Below, piece by piece: positions 30,267 to 36,840 of a stretch of DNA of 36,840 nt. The stretch's first letter is position 1. Each line of letters opens with the position of its first letter. Below the pieces are notes generated by a model, which was given only the letters and a program-made list of their open reading frames with translations, did no database searches and was not told where the DNA came from. Source of the stretch: Phascolarctobacterium sp. (GTDB taxonomy: Bacteria; Bacillota; Negativicutes; Acidaminococcales; Acidaminococcaceae); contig JAUNOC010000008.1 in NCBI GenBank assembly GCA_030531205.1, forward strand, positions 1-36,840, in the 5' to 3' direction. Made by a program: the position numbers and the translations under genes.

Positions 30267-30804
30267 ATTCAAAACAGCAAAATCTTATTTTCAAAATCTC
30301 GCGACTTTGATATAAAATCTCGCGATTTTGAAATTCACTTTCCACGCTTTTAATTGTGTTTTGTTGACGAGTGATTTCATTGATGAAAATACTTTCAGTG
30401 TGAAAAGAATTTTTATTTTCGTTCAAAATTGTAAAAGTAAAAATTTTTAATCACGTGATTTTTACAAAAAATCACGTGATTAAAAAAACATTGTTTCACG
30501 ATTTTTTTAGTTTTGGATGAGAGAATTTTTTTGAAAGTAAAATGCTTGTGATAATTCACAATTCATAATTCACAATGCACAATTTAATTAAGAATTATGA
30601 ATGAAGAATTAAGAATGATGGTTGGGAGTTCCGGTGATTATATAACAGGTTACAGGAGTATAAGTAGCCCCCGCCTTTGCGGGGGCTGTCGCTTTTAGGA
30701 ACGCGGTTGCGACTGGGGGTGCAGATTACGCAGATACTTTATCAAGAATAAATGTCAAAGAACAAAGAGCAAAGACCAAATATGGTAAAAACTTCCTGTG
30801 ATTG
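30267..30804 (+). repeat. 538-bp tandem element, copy A
   Basis: First of two direct copies about 561 bp apart. From left: a hairpin of TCGCGA-containing arms (30288-30334), a second hairpin whose arms each contain CACGTGA (30444-30487, ~20-bp stem), two abutting heptamer arrays (30552-30586 CAATTCA type; 30592-30619 GAATTAA type), a core variant GAGTTCCGGTGATTA, a GC-rich hairpin pair (two-hairpin copy 4), and a terminal CAAAGAN array (30756-30783) with core. There is no open frame with coding character. Confidence 0.8.
30666..30713 (-). repeat. Two-hairpin element, copy 4
   Basis: In plus coordinates: AGCCCCCGC (30666-30674) pairs with GCGGGGGCT (30679-30687), and directly after it GTCGC (30688-30692) pairs with GCGAC (30709-30713) around a 16-nt loop containing TTTTAGGAAC. 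Read on the minus strand it has the same order, loop and spacing as copy 1. Confidence 0.6.
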
Positions 30805-30827
30805 GAAACAGTCACAGGATTTTTTTT

Positions 30828-31365
30828 ATTCAAAATAGCAGAATCTTAATTTCAAAATCGCGCGACTTTGATATAAAATCTCGCGATTTTGAAATTAACT
30901 TTCCACGCTTTTAACTGCGTTTTGTTGAAGAGTAATTTTAGTAATGAAAACGCTTTTAGTGTGAAAAGGACTTTTATTTTCGTTAAAAATCATAAAATTA
31001 AAAAGTTTTAATCTCGCGATTTCTTAGAAAAATCTCGCGATTAAAAAAAGATTGTTTCACGATTTTTTCAGTTTTGAATGAGAGAATTTTTTTGAAAGTA
31101 AAGTGTTTGTGATAATTCACAATTCATAATTCACAATGCACAATTTAATTAAGAATTATGAATGAAGAATTAAGAATGATGGTTGGGAGTTCCGGTGATT
31201 ATATAACAGGTTACAGGAGTATAAGTAGCCCCCGCCTTTGCGGGGGCTGTCGCTTTTAGGAACGTGGTTGCGACTGGGGGTGCAGATTACGCAGACACTT
31301 TATCAAGGAATAAATGTCAAAGAATAAAGAGCAAAGACCAAATATGGTAAAATGTTCCTGTGATT
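30828..31365 (+). repeat. 538-bp tandem element, copy B
   Basis: Second copy. The right ~250 bp is nearly identical to copy A; the left half is clearly more diverged. Hairpins are at 30850-30894 and 31006-31049; in the second, both arms carry CTCGCGA where copy A has CACGTGA in both arms. The terminal array (CAAAGAA, TAAAGAG, CAAAGAC and CAAATAT) and core TGTTCCTGTGATT end it. Confidence 0.8.
31227..31274 (-). repeat. Two-hairpin element, copy 5
   Basis: Same sequence as copy 4 apart from one loop base (ACGTGG for ACGCGG), carried within tandem element copy B. Confidence 0.6.
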
Positions 31366-31936: not shown

Positions 31937-32030
31937 AGTTCTTGTACCATACCAAGAGCTAACAGGTTATTACAATAAGGTCATTGGACCGAAAAGATAT
32001 CGCCCTACATTTGTAGGGCGATATCTTTTT
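31937..32030 (+). ncRNA. tracrRNA of the type II-C CRISPR-Cas system
   Basis: About 94 nt. The anti-repeat (31941-31976) aligns without gaps to the 36-nt CRISPR repeat complement at 36805-36840: 29 of 36 identical and four of the seven differences allow G·U pairing, with a 2-nt internal mismatch near the 3' end as in other dual guides. Then follow AATAAGG, a short nexus hairpin (GGTC 31979-31982 with GACC 31987-31990), GAAAAGAT as in the Neisseria tracrRNA, and the terminator hairpin. It pairs with pre-crRNA, is cut by RNase III, and loads Cas9. Its 5' end is inferred from the promoter. Confidence 0.9.
31992..32030 (+). terminator. tracrRNA terminator
   Basis: A very stable hairpin (31992-32009 with 32012-32029; GATATCGCCCTAC arm) ends in five T. 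It is also the last structured part of the tracrRNA. cas9 starts only 37 nt later. Confidence 0.9.
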
Positions 32031-32067: not shown

Positions 32068-35000
32068 ATGGCTTATGGAATTGGATTGGACATTGGTATT
32101 GCTTCGGTAGGATGGGCGGTTGTTGACTTGGATTATGATGAAAACCCTATGGGAATAATTGATTTAGGTGTGGAAATTTTTGATAAAGCAGAAAATGCTG
32201 ATGGTTCGCCTTTGGCTTTGCCACGTAGGGAAGCCCGTTCTGCCCGTCGTCGCTTACGCCGGCATCGCCATCGCTTGGAACGGATTAAAAAATTGTTTGT
32301 TCAAGAAAAATTAATTAGTGAAAATGGATTAAACAATTTATTTGGCGGTAAATTAAAGGATATTTATCAATTACGCACAGAAGCACTTGACACCTTGCTG
32401 ACTGATGAAGAAATGGTCAGGGTACTTATTCATATTGCTCAAAGGCGTGGATTTAAGTCAAATAGAAAATCGGAGAAAAATGAAAAGGATAATGGTAAGT
32501 TATTGACAGCAGTTGATGAGAACAAGAAAAGAATGCAAGAAAAAGGTTATCGCACAGTTGGGGAAATGTTCTATAAAGATGCTCTTTTTGCGGAACATAA
32601 ACGGAATAAGGATGGCGAATATTTGGCAACCGTAGGCAGAGCAGATATTGAGAATGAGATTAAAAAGATTTTTGCCAAACAATACGATTTGGGTAATAAG
32701 AAATTTAATGAAACTTTAATGAATAAATATTTGGACATTGTCTTAAGCCAGCGTAATTTTGACGAAGGCCCTGGTGATGACAGTCCGTATGGTGGAAATC
32801 AAATTGAAAAAATGATAGGTATTTGTACTTTTCTTAATAAAAAGAATGGCAATAAAACGAATGAACCAAGAGCACCTAAAGCATCTTTTTCAGTTGAATA
32901 TTTTACTTTGTTACAAAAAGTAAATAATTTACGTTTATTTGATGATGGGGAAAAACTCCCTTTGGATGATGAACAGCGAGGAAAAGTTATTGAACTGGCA
33001 AAATCTAAGGCAGACATAAATTATGCTATGATCCGTAAGGAATTAGGTTTAAGTAATGATATATTATTTGACACGTTAAATTATTCAGAAAATAATTTTG
33101 ACAGTTTTGAAAAAAAGCAAAAATATAATGATTCTCAATTAGGCGATTTATGTTTTCTTATAAATGGGCAAATGGTGGCTTTTAATGCAGAACAGAAAGA
33201 GAAAGTTATTGCATTGATGAATTCCAAGAAAAGGGTAAATTATGCCCAAATTCGCAAAGTATTGGGGTTAAATAAAAACACATTATTTGGTAATTTGGAT
33301 TACCCAAATTGGACCATTGAAGAATTTGAGAAAAAACAAAAATTTAACTATTTGAAAGTTTATCATCAAATGAGAATAGCATTGGATAAAATTGCAAAAA
33401 ATCATATTAAATCTTATGATATTGCCACATTAGATGAGATAGGCAGAATTTTGAGTATTTACAAGGGTGATGATAGGAGAAAAGAAGAATTATCTAAAAT
33501 TGGCATAACTTCTAATGAAGAGATTGAAGCATTATTGGAAATTAGTGGTGTTACGAAATTTTCACATTTGTCTTTGAAAGCAATTTATGCAATCACACCA
33601 TCTTTAGAAAAAGGATTAAAGTATAATGAAGCGTGCAGTGTTGCTGGTTTTGATTTTAAAGGACATGGTAATGGGAAAAAATCTAAATTCCTTCCCAAAT
33701 ATAATGATGATATGAAACAAATTACCAGTCCTGTAGTACGTAGAGCTATTTCTCATACCATTCGTGTTGTTAATGCTATTATCAATAAACAGGGGATAAG
33801 TCCGACTTATATTAATGTTGAATTGGCAAGAGAAATGGCAAAAGATTTTGAAGAACGTCAGAAAATAAAAAATCAGTATGACAAGAACAGGGAAGACAAT
33901 GAAAGGATGATGCAAGAAATAAAAGAAGGAAAATTCGGTATCAATGATCCAAAAGGGCAGGATTTGGTAAAGTATAAACTATTTAAAGAACAAGATGGAC
34001 GCAGCCCTTATTCTCAAAAAGCATTTAATGTGCAACGACTTTTTGAACCAGGATATGTTGAGGTTGACCACATTATACCTTATTCGCTTTGCTTTGATGA
34101 TAGTTATAAAAATAAAGTATTAGTCCTTAAAGAAGAAAATCAAAAAAAGAAAAACAGAACTCCTATACAATATTTAGCACAAGAATTTGGTCAAAGTGCT
34201 GTGGAAAAATTTACTATCTGGATTAAAAACAGCAATTTGAATTCTAAGAAAAAAATGAATTTGTTGACTAAAGAAACAGAATTTAGCGGTTTCAAGGAAC
34301 GCAATCTTACAGACACAAAGTTTGCATCAATATTTATCCTAAATTATATTCGGGATTATTTGGAATTTGCAGAAAGTAGTACAGGAAGAAAAGAAAGGGT
34401 AACTGCAGTTAATGGGGTAATTACATCTTATTTGCGTAAATGCTGGGGAATTGAAAAGATTAGAGCAAATGGAGATACACATCATGCCAAGGATGCTGTT
34501 GTTATTGCTTGTGTAACAAATAAGATGGAACAAGAAGTTACACATTATAATATGATTAAAGAAACAACAGGATTTTTAACGGCAAAGGATAAAAAATTAC
34601 CTTTGCCTTATCAAGATTTCCGTCGGGAGGTAATTTGCAGAACTTGTGATGATCCTGTCAGAATGTTGGAAGAGGAACATATACCTTATTATGCTGATAA
34701 AGATTTACATAGTTTTAAACCTATTTTTGTTTCAAGAATGCGGCGTAAAAAAGTGACAGGTGCGGCACATGAAGCAACTATTCGTGGCGTGAGTATAGTA
34801 GACGGAAAATATTATTCGGTTTCAAAGGTATCGTTAACTGAATTAAATTTAGGTAAGGACGGAGAAATAGAAGATTATTACAATCTCAAAGATGATTTGC
34901 TTCTATATAATGCATTGAAGGTGCGTTTGCAAGAGCATAACGGAAAGGGTAAAGAAGCATTTTCGGAGTCAGAGCCGTTTTACAAACCAAAATCAGATGG

Positions 35001-35538
35001 TACGCCAGGAAATTTAGTGAAAAAGGTGAAAAAAATTAACAACATGACTGTTATTCCAGTAGGCACTAGAGGTTATGCTAAAAATGGAGATATGATACGT
35101 ATAGATGTATTTCTTACTGAGGAAGATGGTTATTACTTTGTACCAATTTATGTGGCAGATACTGTAAATAAGACATTGCCTAACCGTGCATGTATTGATG
35201 GGAAATTACGATCTGAATGGAAAGAAATGAAAGAAGAAGATTTTTTGTTTTCTTTGTATCATAACGACCTTATATATATCAAGCGAAAAGAACCAATACC
35301 AATGAGTAAGATTAATAAGAAAAGTAATATGGAGGATAAGATATATGTGAACGATGCTTTTTTGTATTTTCAAGACGCTAACGCTTTTCATGCATCCATA
35401 AATGTTATAAATGACGATAATACTTATGGGCAAGATACTTTGCGTATAAAGAATGTAGAAGTATTTGAAAAATATCAGGTGGATGTTTTAGGTAATATTA
35501 CTAAGGTCGGCAAGGAAACTCGGCAGAAATTCAAATAA
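32068..35538 (+). CDS. cas9: CRISPR-associated endonuclease Cas9, type II-C (Nme-like)
   Basis: An 1156-residue RNA-guided DNA nuclease. RuvC-I Asp8 in GLDIGIASVGWA, Arg-rich bridge helix (~53-77), recognition lobe, RuvC-II Glu585 in INVELAREMA, HNH with Asp667-His668, Asn682 and Asn691 (VEVDHIIPYS), RuvC-III His806 and Asp809 in HHAKDAVV, then the PAM-interacting end (FVPIYVADTVNKTLPNRA; KYQVDVLG), all close to NmeCas9. All catalytic residues are intact. Odd: residues ~287-357 and ~360-430 are tandem copies of one 73-residue unit (about 40% identical), present once in NmeCas9; this explains the length over 1082. AAGGAGG precedes the ATG. The gene is more AT-rich than the flanking housekeeping genes. 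Confidence 0.97.
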   Translation: MAYGIGLDIGIASVGWAVVDLDYDENPMGIIDLGVEIFDKAENADGSPLALPRREARSARRRLRRHRHRLERIKKLFVQEKLISENGLNNLFGGKLKDIYQLRTEALDTLLTDEEMVRVLIHIAQRRGFKSNRKSEKNEKDNGKLLTAVDENKKRMQEKGYRTVGEMFYKDALFAEHKRNKDGEYLATVGRADIENEIKKIFAKQYDLGNKKFNETLMNKYLDIVLSQRNFDEGPGDDSPYGGNQIEKMIGICTFLNKKNGNKTNEPRAPKASFSVEYFTLLQKVNNLRLFDDGEKLPLDDEQRGKVIELAKSKADINYAMIRKELGLSNDILFDTLNYSENNFDSFEKKQKYNDSQLGDLCFLINGQMVAFNAEQKEKVIALMNSKKRVNYAQIRKVLGLNKNTLFGNLDYPNWTIEEFEKKQKFNYLKVYHQMRIALDKIAKNHIKSYDIATLDEIGRILSIYKGDDRRKEELSKIGITSNEEIEALLEISGVTKFSHLSLKAIYAITPSLEKGLKYNEACSVAGFDFKGHGNGKKSKFLPKYNDDMKQITSPVVRRAISHTIRVVNAIINKQGISPTYINVELAREMAKDFEERQKIKNQYDKNREDNERMMQEIKEGKFGINDPKGQDLVKYKLFKEQDGRSPYSQKAFNVQRLFEPGYVEVDHIIPYSLCFDDSYKNKVLVLKEENQKKKNRTPIQYLAQEFGQSAVEKFTIWIKNSNLNSKKKMNLLTKETEFSGFKERNLTDTKFASIFILNYIRDYLEFAESSTGRKERVTAVNGVITSYLRKCWGIEKIRANGDTHHAKDAVVIACVTNKMEQEVTHYNMIKETTGFLTAKDKKLPLPYQDFRREVICRTCDDPVRMLEEEHIPYYADKDLHSFKPIFVSRMRRKKVTGAAHEATIRGVSIVDGKYYSVSKVSLTELNLGKDGEIEDYYNLKDDLLLYNALKVRLQEHNGKGKEAFSESEPFYKPKSDGTPGNLVKKVKKINNMTVIPVGTRGYAKNGDMIRIDVFLTEEDGYYFVPIYVADTVNKTLPNRACIDGKLRSEWKEMKEEDFLFSLYHNDLIYIKRKEPIPMSKINKKSNMEDKIYVNDAFLYFQDANAFHASINVINDDNTYGQDTLRIKNVEVFEKYQVDVLGNITKVGKETRQKFK

Positions 35539-35541
35539 ATT

Positions 35542-36441
35542 ATGGCATACCGTAATTTGTTAATTGAAAATGCAACGGAGATAAGTGCCAAAAACGGACA
35601 GTTGATTGTTATGCGGGATGACAGGTATGCCCTGCCTATTGAGGACATTAATTCCATCTTGTTGGAAAATCGTTTTACCAAAATTACTACTCATGCCCTC
35701 AGCGAATTGGCAAAAGGGAATGTTACGGTATATGTATGTGACGAAAAACATTTGCCCTGTGCCGTTATGACACCGTTTATGCAAAATGTCCGTTCTACAG
35801 CGGTAGTGAGATGCCAAAACGATTTAACTTTACCCGCCAAAAAACGCTTATGGCAGCAAGTTGCCAAAGCAAAAATAATAAATCAGTCACTATGTTTGGC
35901 TTTATTGGGATATGTCAGTGATTCCCATTATTTGCGGAATTTGGTAAATGATGTGAACAGCGGCGATACCTTGAATGTGGAGGCAACAGCGGCAAATTAT
36001 TATTTTAAAACATTATTTGGCAAAAGTTTTACCCGTGAGGACGATAATATCTATAATGCTGCTTTGAATTATGGCTATGCCATTATGCGTGGGAATATGG
36101 CAAAACTTGTGGCGGTTTATGGCTTAATTCCTTTATTGGGTATTCATCATAACAGTACCGTGAACAGTTTTAATTTGGTGGATGATTTAATGGAACCATT
36201 CAGACCTGTTGTAGATTTGTTTGTGGCAAAGAATGTGCAAGACAATATGTTTATGAATGGTGAACTGAAACGGTGCTTATATAACTTGCTCAATGTTGAT
36301 ATGGAAATGGGGAACTTGCATTATACTGTTGCTTATGCTGAAGAAAGGATGGTTCAAAGTTTTTTAAGATGTGTTGAGGGGAAAAGCAAAGAAATGCTTA
36401 TTCCCAAGTTAATGGAATTGCGTCAGCACAGTTATGAATAA
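35542..36441 (+). CDS. cas1: CRISPR-associated integrase Cas1, type II
   Basis: A 299-residue Cas1 that with Cas2 inserts new spacers. Metal-site residues: Glu147 in NVEATAANYYF, His202/His203 in GIHHNSTVNSFN, and Glu218 in DDLMEPFRP. Starts 3 nt after the cas9 stop without a clear Shine-Dalgarno, so translation is likely coupled; overlaps cas2 by 8 nt. The absence of csn2 and cas4 next to it supports subtype II-C. Confidence 0.96.
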   Translation: MAYRNLLIENATEISAKNGQLIVMRDDRYALPIEDINSILLENRFTKITTHALSELAKGNVTVYVCDEKHLPCAVMTPFMQNVRSTAVVRCQNDLTLPAKKRLWQQVAKAKIINQSLCLALLGYVSDSHYLRNLVNDVNSGDTLNVEATAANYYFKTLFGKSFTREDDNIYNAALNYGYAIMRGNMAKLVAVYGLIPLLGIHHNSTVNSFNLVDDLMEPFRPVVDLFVAKNVQDNMFMNGELKRCLYNLLNVDMEMGNLHYTVAYAEERMVQSFLRCVEGKSKEMLIPKLMELRQHSYE

Positions 36442-36754
36442 ATTTATGAGAATGTTAGTTATGTTTGATTTGCCGGTTATGACCAAACAGGAACGGAGGG
36501 TGGCAACGCAGTTTCGTAATTTTTTATTAAAAGATGGATATTATATGGTGCAATATTCTGTTTATGCCCGTGTGTGTAATGGCAGTGATGCGGTGGAAAA
36601 ACATCGGCAAAGATTAAAACAGAATTTGCCGGATAATGGTTCAATAAGATTGTTGGTTATAACAGAAAAGCAGTATGAATCTGTGGAGATATTGGTTGGC
36701 AAATTAAAAGAGCAGGACAAGCCGTTTATTTGCGAACAGCTGACTATTTTTTAA
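36434..36754 (+). CDS. cas2: CRISPR-associated protein Cas2
   Basis: A 106-residue ferredoxin-like protein; Asp12 in VMFDLPV is the conserved Asp of the family, and SVYARVCNGSDAVEKH and RLLVITEKQYESV fit type II Cas2. It bridges two Cas1 dimers in the spacer integration complex. The ATG lies inside the end of cas1 (ATGAATAA). An alternative ATG at 36446 cannot be excluded. Confidence 0.95.
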   Translation: MNKFMRMLVMFDLPVMTKQERRVATQFRNFLLKDGYYMVQYSVYARVCNGSDAVEKHRQRLKQNLPDNGSIRLLVITEKQYESVEILVGKLKEQDKPFICEQLTIF

Positions 36755-36804: not shown

Positions 36805-36813
36805 ATTATACCA
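36805..36813 (-). promoter_or_regulatory. Extended -10 promoter inside the CRISPR repeat
   Basis: The repeat ends (minus strand) in TGGTATAAT, an extended -10. Each repeat can thus start transcription within the next spacer. For this terminal repeat the transcript would run straight into the terminator at 36794-36761. Confidence 0.6.
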
Positions 36814-36840
36814 TACCAAGAACCAACAGGGAATTACAAC
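36805..36840 (-). CRISPR. Terminal type II-C CRISPR repeat (array continues past the window)
   Basis: One 36-nt unit is visible, cut at the window end. In crRNA sense (minus) it begins GTTGTAATTCCC and ends ATGGTATAAT, the same layout as the Neisseria repeat (GTTGTAGCTCCC…CTACAAT). Its complement matches the tracrRNA anti-repeat at 31941-31976. Borders are set by that match and by analogy, since no second repeat can be seen. The array lies to the right and is read toward cas2. Confidence 0.82.

Follow-up and report, generated by a model that had tools for sequence, protein, structure and literature searches.

Tandem duplication of a REC2 module in a type II-C Cas9 from Phascolarctobacterium sp.

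A type II-C Cas9 of Phascolarctobacterium sp. almost certainly carries a tandem duplication of a 73-residue module of its REC2 domain, the additional residues being 355-427. The gene lies in a stretch of 36,840 nucleotides (contig JAUNOC010000008.1, positions 1 to 36,840), here called the window, to which all coordinates refer. Our full reading is that an active-looking II-C enzyme had its REC2 module duplicated within its own lineage, kept both copies in frame, and thereby has an altered REC2 docking and HNH threshold; taken as a whole, this reading has about an even chance of being correct.

The cas9 gene and its CRISPR locus

The cas9 gene (32068-35538, plus strand) encodes 1156 amino acids and matches the whole-protein model TIGR01865 with an E-value of 6e-234 and 780 bits, against a cut-off of 100. 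The Pfam families PF13395 (HNH_4), PF18541 (RuvC_III) and PF22702 also score over their cut-offs, and the catalytic residues of RuvC and HNH (D8, E585, H668, N691, H806 and D809) are invariant in an alignment with four relatives. The three parts of RuvC and the HNH domain that mark a Cas9 are thus present. A phmmer search of solved structures returned 21dz first, and the II-C enzymes ThermoCas9, GeoCas9 and Nme1Cas9, ranked after 21dz, place the protein next to type II-C.

Directly after cas9 follow cas1 (35542-36441, plus strand; PADLOC Cas1_II, E 2e-99) and cas2 (36434-36754, plus strand; Cas2_II, E 2e-45), and then a CRISPR array, giving the order cas9-cas1-cas2-array. The window ends with the first repeat of the array (36806-36840, minus strand), which continues on the contig to about 37972 and holds 17 exact copies of a 30-base pattern, mostly 66 bases apart, within a 36-nt repeat. 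Neither csn2 nor cas4 was found between pyc and the array, as no ORF of at least 80 amino acids lies between pyc and cas9, and the coding strand has no additional one this long from cas9 up to the array; over this span the gene content is that of type II-C. A predicted tracrRNA adjoins cas9 on the plus strand, as also expected of a II-C system with an array of 36-nt repeats. It consists of an anti-repeat (31942-31975) that forms a direct repeat with 36806-36839 at 85% identity, a nexus-like hairpin GGUC-AUUG-GACC (31979-31990) and a 3' hairpin or intrinsic terminator of 18 bp (31991-32030), the hairpins being obtained by folding. The folded layout is the same overall as that of the relatives, with a nexus-like stem of 4 bp and a 4-nt loop here versus 3 bp and a 5-nt loop in two relatives, and 18 unbroken pairs in the 3' hairpin versus 12-13 followed by a bulge and outer pairs in those two. 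The idea that the tracrRNA had been reshaped to fit the doubled REC2 was rejected, the differences being small and no link to REC2 being shown.

The locus as read from its sequence looks like an intact type II-C system. Given the presence of the catalytic residues, cas1, cas2, the tracrRNA-like sequence and the CRISPR array, the enzyme is probably active. Upstream of the locus, at 30267-31365, lie two tandem copies of a non-coding segment of about 560 bp, 88-95% identical where matched. Both copies contain a terminator-like hairpin rich in GC, as well as inverted repeats rich in AT.

A REC2 unit present twice

The best ungapped match of the protein to itself pairs residues 283-354 (copy 1, U1; 32914-33129, plus strand) with residues 356-427 (copy 2, U2; 33133-33348, plus strand) at an offset of 73. 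Identical residues occupy 30 of the 72 positions and the BLOSUM62 score is 144, whereas the next-best self-match scored 42 and the maximum among 100 shuffled proteins was 55. An HMM of the unit, built from other Cas9s and U1 with U2 left out, found two domains in the protein, at residues 272-354 (iE 1e-34) and 359-427 (iE 1.9e-15); the first is the full family unit including the N-terminal helix of U1 (32881-33129, plus strand). In the phmmer alignment with ThermoCas9 (9ar4), query residues 1-342 and 387-1152 were matched to the overlapping target stretches 1-322 and 294-1064. Each copy searched alone led to the same REC2 stretch of solved II-C Cas9s: U1 with its preceding helix matched residues 265-344 of Nme REC2, and U2 matched HpaCas9 274-354 and GeoCas9 REC2 with weak E-values (0.0016 and 0.012).

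The original prediction of a tandemly duplicated recognition-lobe unit with an offset of 73 is borne out by the self-match, the unit HMM, phmmer and the single unit of the relatives. It had placed the repeat at 32926-33360, right to within a few residues, and had correctly given the length of 1156 and the motifs INYAMIRKELGL / VNYAQIRKVLGL and FEKKQKYN / FEKKQKFN. It had also suggested that the enlarged lobe could affect guide contacts, specificity or the dependence on tracrRNA shape. Finally, it had equated the extra length of the protein with the duplication; the gain of 73 residues is real, but the protein is only 58 residues longer than its closest relative (1098 aa), because other parts of it are shorter, chiefly near residues 836-845, and partly offset the 73 gained. 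That site is the loop after RuvC-III (window ~34573-34602), which the nearest relatives have in a form longer by about 15 residues.

By its sequence, the 1156-residue protein is a type II-C Cas9 that departs from its kind in a single structural respect, the doubling of the REC2 unit. It shares domain order, catalytic residues, the cas1-cas2-array neighbourhood and tracrRNA layout with the group of Nme1Cas9, GeoCas9 and ThermoCas9; these, however, carry the single REC2 unit of the Nme/Geo-type II-C REC lobe, and the present protein carries two.

The genome is a draft of 15 contigs, and the extra unit might be thought an artefact of assembly or annotation. An assembly error would leave near-identical copies, whereas U1 and U2 share only 134 of 216 bases (82 differ, 38%) and the frame is open throughout; an assembly artefact was therefore rejected, and the probability of an artefact of either kind is negligible.

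Occurrence in other Cas9s

The closest sampled relatives, by whole-protein identity, are the Cas9s of G027 (L006, 56%), G007 (L005, 55%), G008 (L007, 53%) and FC7 (L004, 48%). In all four the extra stretch is a gap in the whole-protein alignment, about 73 residues being absent there. The unit profile strongly matched about 20 distinct Cas9s, with one domain in each of 19 and two in the query only. The duplication could have been contradicted by finding both segments in single-length II-C Cas9s, but these have one segment.

Overlapping searches of a phylum sample (398 genomes), the 399 nearest relatives and two further classes, about 1,400 genomes in total, gave no second Cas9 with a doubled unit, two units being found only in the window's own genome. 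None was found among the best tblastn matches in phage and plasmid collections either, the records L070 and L071 having one unit each, and scans of viral contigs for additional Cas9s returned nothing. The genus mates G001 and G002 had no match to the query Cas9. Searches of openly licensed literature found no description of a Cas9 with such a repeat.

Several other loci came to light in these searches. L070 (MT837457.1), an unverified 'Bacteriophage sp.' scaffold of 6.8 kb obtained from human faeces, has a gene for a type II-C-like Cas9 with 44% identity to the query; this record may be a bacterial contig that was filed under phage by mistake. In Pasteurella multocida (L073, NZ_CP113523.1) a Cas9 match adjoins cas1; the lack of an annotated cas9 and a longest matching ORF of 937 aa suggest that the gene is broken. 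In the same family, two species from a different genus, G027 and G025, have three and two Cas9-like ORFs, respectively, each 751-812 aa long (L079 on G027 C14, L080 on C30 and L081 on C36; L082 on G025 C63 and L083 on C96), which resemble Cas9 at the N-terminus and have no HHA motif. The four of these five that were scanned gave no Pfam HNH or RuvC_III match, and no CRISPR-like repeats were found in 6-8 kb around L079-L083, nor cas1 or cas2 by eye. Their neighbours are housekeeping genes (by eye rpsB-tsf, priA and tmk), and two pairs occupy corresponding positions in the two species; these ORFs may be orphan Cas9 derivatives that have been domesticated.

Age and origin of the duplication

Identical residues of U1 and U2 use the same codon in 17 of 30 cases, against 15.5 expected from codon usage. 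Between the copies dN was about 0.4, and two methods put dS at more than 1 and at 0.55, giving a dN/dS below 1 which is uncertain at such length. Since synonymous sites are saturated, the duplication is old, and a recent event was rejected for the same reason. The copies had been proposed to result from an old event and to have been kept; the saturation and a dN lower than dS agree with this, but 'old' has to be qualified, as the tree puts the event within the query lineage.

The tree of units joins U1 and U2 as a sister pair (83/49, not decisive) inside a group with the unit of G027 (90/93), and an alternative tree in which U1 was held with the G027 unit was not rejected (p 0.218). The end branch of U2 is long, 1.65 versus 0.43 for U1. 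The residues S313/386, F347/420 and Q351/424 are common to both copies and occur in no other aligned unit, while A371 and Q394 of U2 match the unit of G027, the only one so linked, and not U1. These last two matches, together with the low identity of U2 to U1 (42%), would suit an import of U2 from another Cas9 by recombination, with no duplication of the neighbouring unit. We regard such an import as very unlikely, as the tree sets U2 beside U1 inside the G027 clade, the best identity match of U2 is U1, and no unit among the sampled Cas9s is closer to it. Given the sister placement of the copies beside the unit of the nearest relative, the duplication most likely arose in the query lineage, at about the time when it split from that of G027 or later, and copy 2 would then have changed fast.

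What each copy kept

The family has 26 conserved positions, of which 21 are matched in U1 and 14 in U2. Almost every loss in U2 lies within the first third of that copy (355-372), in which the consensus residues Q, K, N, H, R, R and L are replaced. From 376 on it retains L383, Y392, I395, R396, K397, L399, L401, F407, Y412, E421, K422, K423, K425 and F426. The net charge is +2 to +5 in the units of relatives, +4 in U2 and -2 in U1. Apparently this looks like a division of labour, with copy 1 keeping the N-terminal part and copy 2 the family-typical charge.

The same data bear on the main rival to a functional effect, in which the added module would be a near-neutral bulge on the surface, tolerated in the peripheral, helical REC2 and of no specific effect on targeting. 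The fast evolution of U2, the erosion of nearly all family-conserved positions in its first third and the restriction of the doubled unit to one genome among those searched are consistent with a bulge of this kind. However, most of the conserved positions from 376 on have been kept despite saturated synonymous sites, which is unexpected for a free bulge, and we consider this explanation possible but doubtful.

Structure of the repeated unit

A full-length model predicted from a two-row alignment had a mean pLDDT of only 32.5. The model of a fragment comprising residues 264-447 reached 52.6 on average, with values of about 70-76 in the U1 core, so it is usable for secondary structure and for U1 only. 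In this low-confidence model both copies consist of a beta hairpin, a helix, a short helix and a strand, in the same order, and the secondary structure of U1 and U2 agrees at 65 of 72 positions at an offset of 73 and less at every other offset. A difference in fold between the segments, which would have told against the original prediction, was thus not seen, and the model suggests that U1 and U2 share one fold. The modelled U1 superposes on residues ~272-346 of Nme1Cas9 REC2 (7xvo; Z 9.6, rmsd 2.1 A over 71 residues) and on SpCas9 513-587 (Z 7.5). The structural matches listed cover residues 1-81 of the fragment, that is U1, and the fold of U2 is without an independent match. In terms of SpCas9, the duplicated module is the N-terminal part of REC3, a fidelity hotspot.

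The structural matches to the unit also include complexes of NmeCas9 and HpaCas9 with AcrIIC4, an anti-CRISPR that acts on REC2 of II-C enzymes, in the crevice between REC1 and REC2 (PMC13131331). A second module could therefore have been selected as an escape from a REC2-binding inhibitor such as AcrIIC4, whose binding would be disturbed by a duplicated and diverged surface. Against this, the doubled unit is found in one genome only, and we judge an escape of this sort to be quite improbable and a lesser rival than the neutral bulge.

Discussion

The effect that we rank as most likely, with somewhat less than an even chance, is a changed docking of REC2. Copy 1 would still provide the contact that the N-terminal part of REC2 canonically makes with the guide-target hybrid, and copy 2 would lead into the next canonical REC2 helix and present a second C-terminal basic motif (EKKxK). 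With the contact of copy 1 retained and the second EKKxK motif of copy 2 added, the domain that senses the PAM-distal heteroduplex would be longer and richer in contacts. The way in which REC2 docks on the PAM-distal R-loop, and with it the threshold for activation of HNH, may then be altered by a logic like that of the REC3 clamp of FnCas9.

Contacts of this kind have been addressed in GeoCas9, where K267 and R332 of REC2 lie near the RNA:DNA hybrid and both were mutated (PMC12088677). In the alignment, the counterparts of K267 are N287 (U1) and D360 (U2), and those of R332 are K352 (U1) and K425 (U2). With D360 and K425 at these places, copy 2 would repeat the second contact and not the first. 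K267 is the equivalent of SpCas9 K526, a fidelity site of evoCas9 (PMC12088677). The single substitutions K267E and R332A nevertheless left the specificity of GeoCas9 unaltered (PMC12088677), so changes in REC2 need not change fidelity.

In FnCas9 the extended REC3 serves as a PAM-distal checkpoint (PMC12231574). FnCas9 and other II-B Cas9s with a REC3 clamp are described there as also having an enlarged domain that reads the PAM-distal heteroduplex. FnCas9, however, is a much larger II-B enzyme in which the clamp is described as an extended REC3 (PMC12231574), whereas the present protein is II-C by its cas genes and its extra part is a second copy of a module, so that the likeness is an analogy only. 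It is unlikely that the duplicated REC2 amounts to an extra proofreading checkpoint convergent with the II-B REC3 clamp, in which HNH would fire only after fuller PAM-distal pairing. Engineered SpCas9 variants such as evoCas9 and related REC3 variants carry changes in the same module (SpCas9 513-587, including K526, the counterpart of GeoCas9 K267), but these are point substitutions made in the laboratory, and the change described here is a natural duplication.

The Cas9 with the doubled REC2 is a natural experiment on target proofreading. Together with its single-unit relatives it forms a clean pair for asking how far the size of this domain sets the proofreading of Cas9, and the same pair bears on whether REC lobes can lengthen by duplication of a module.
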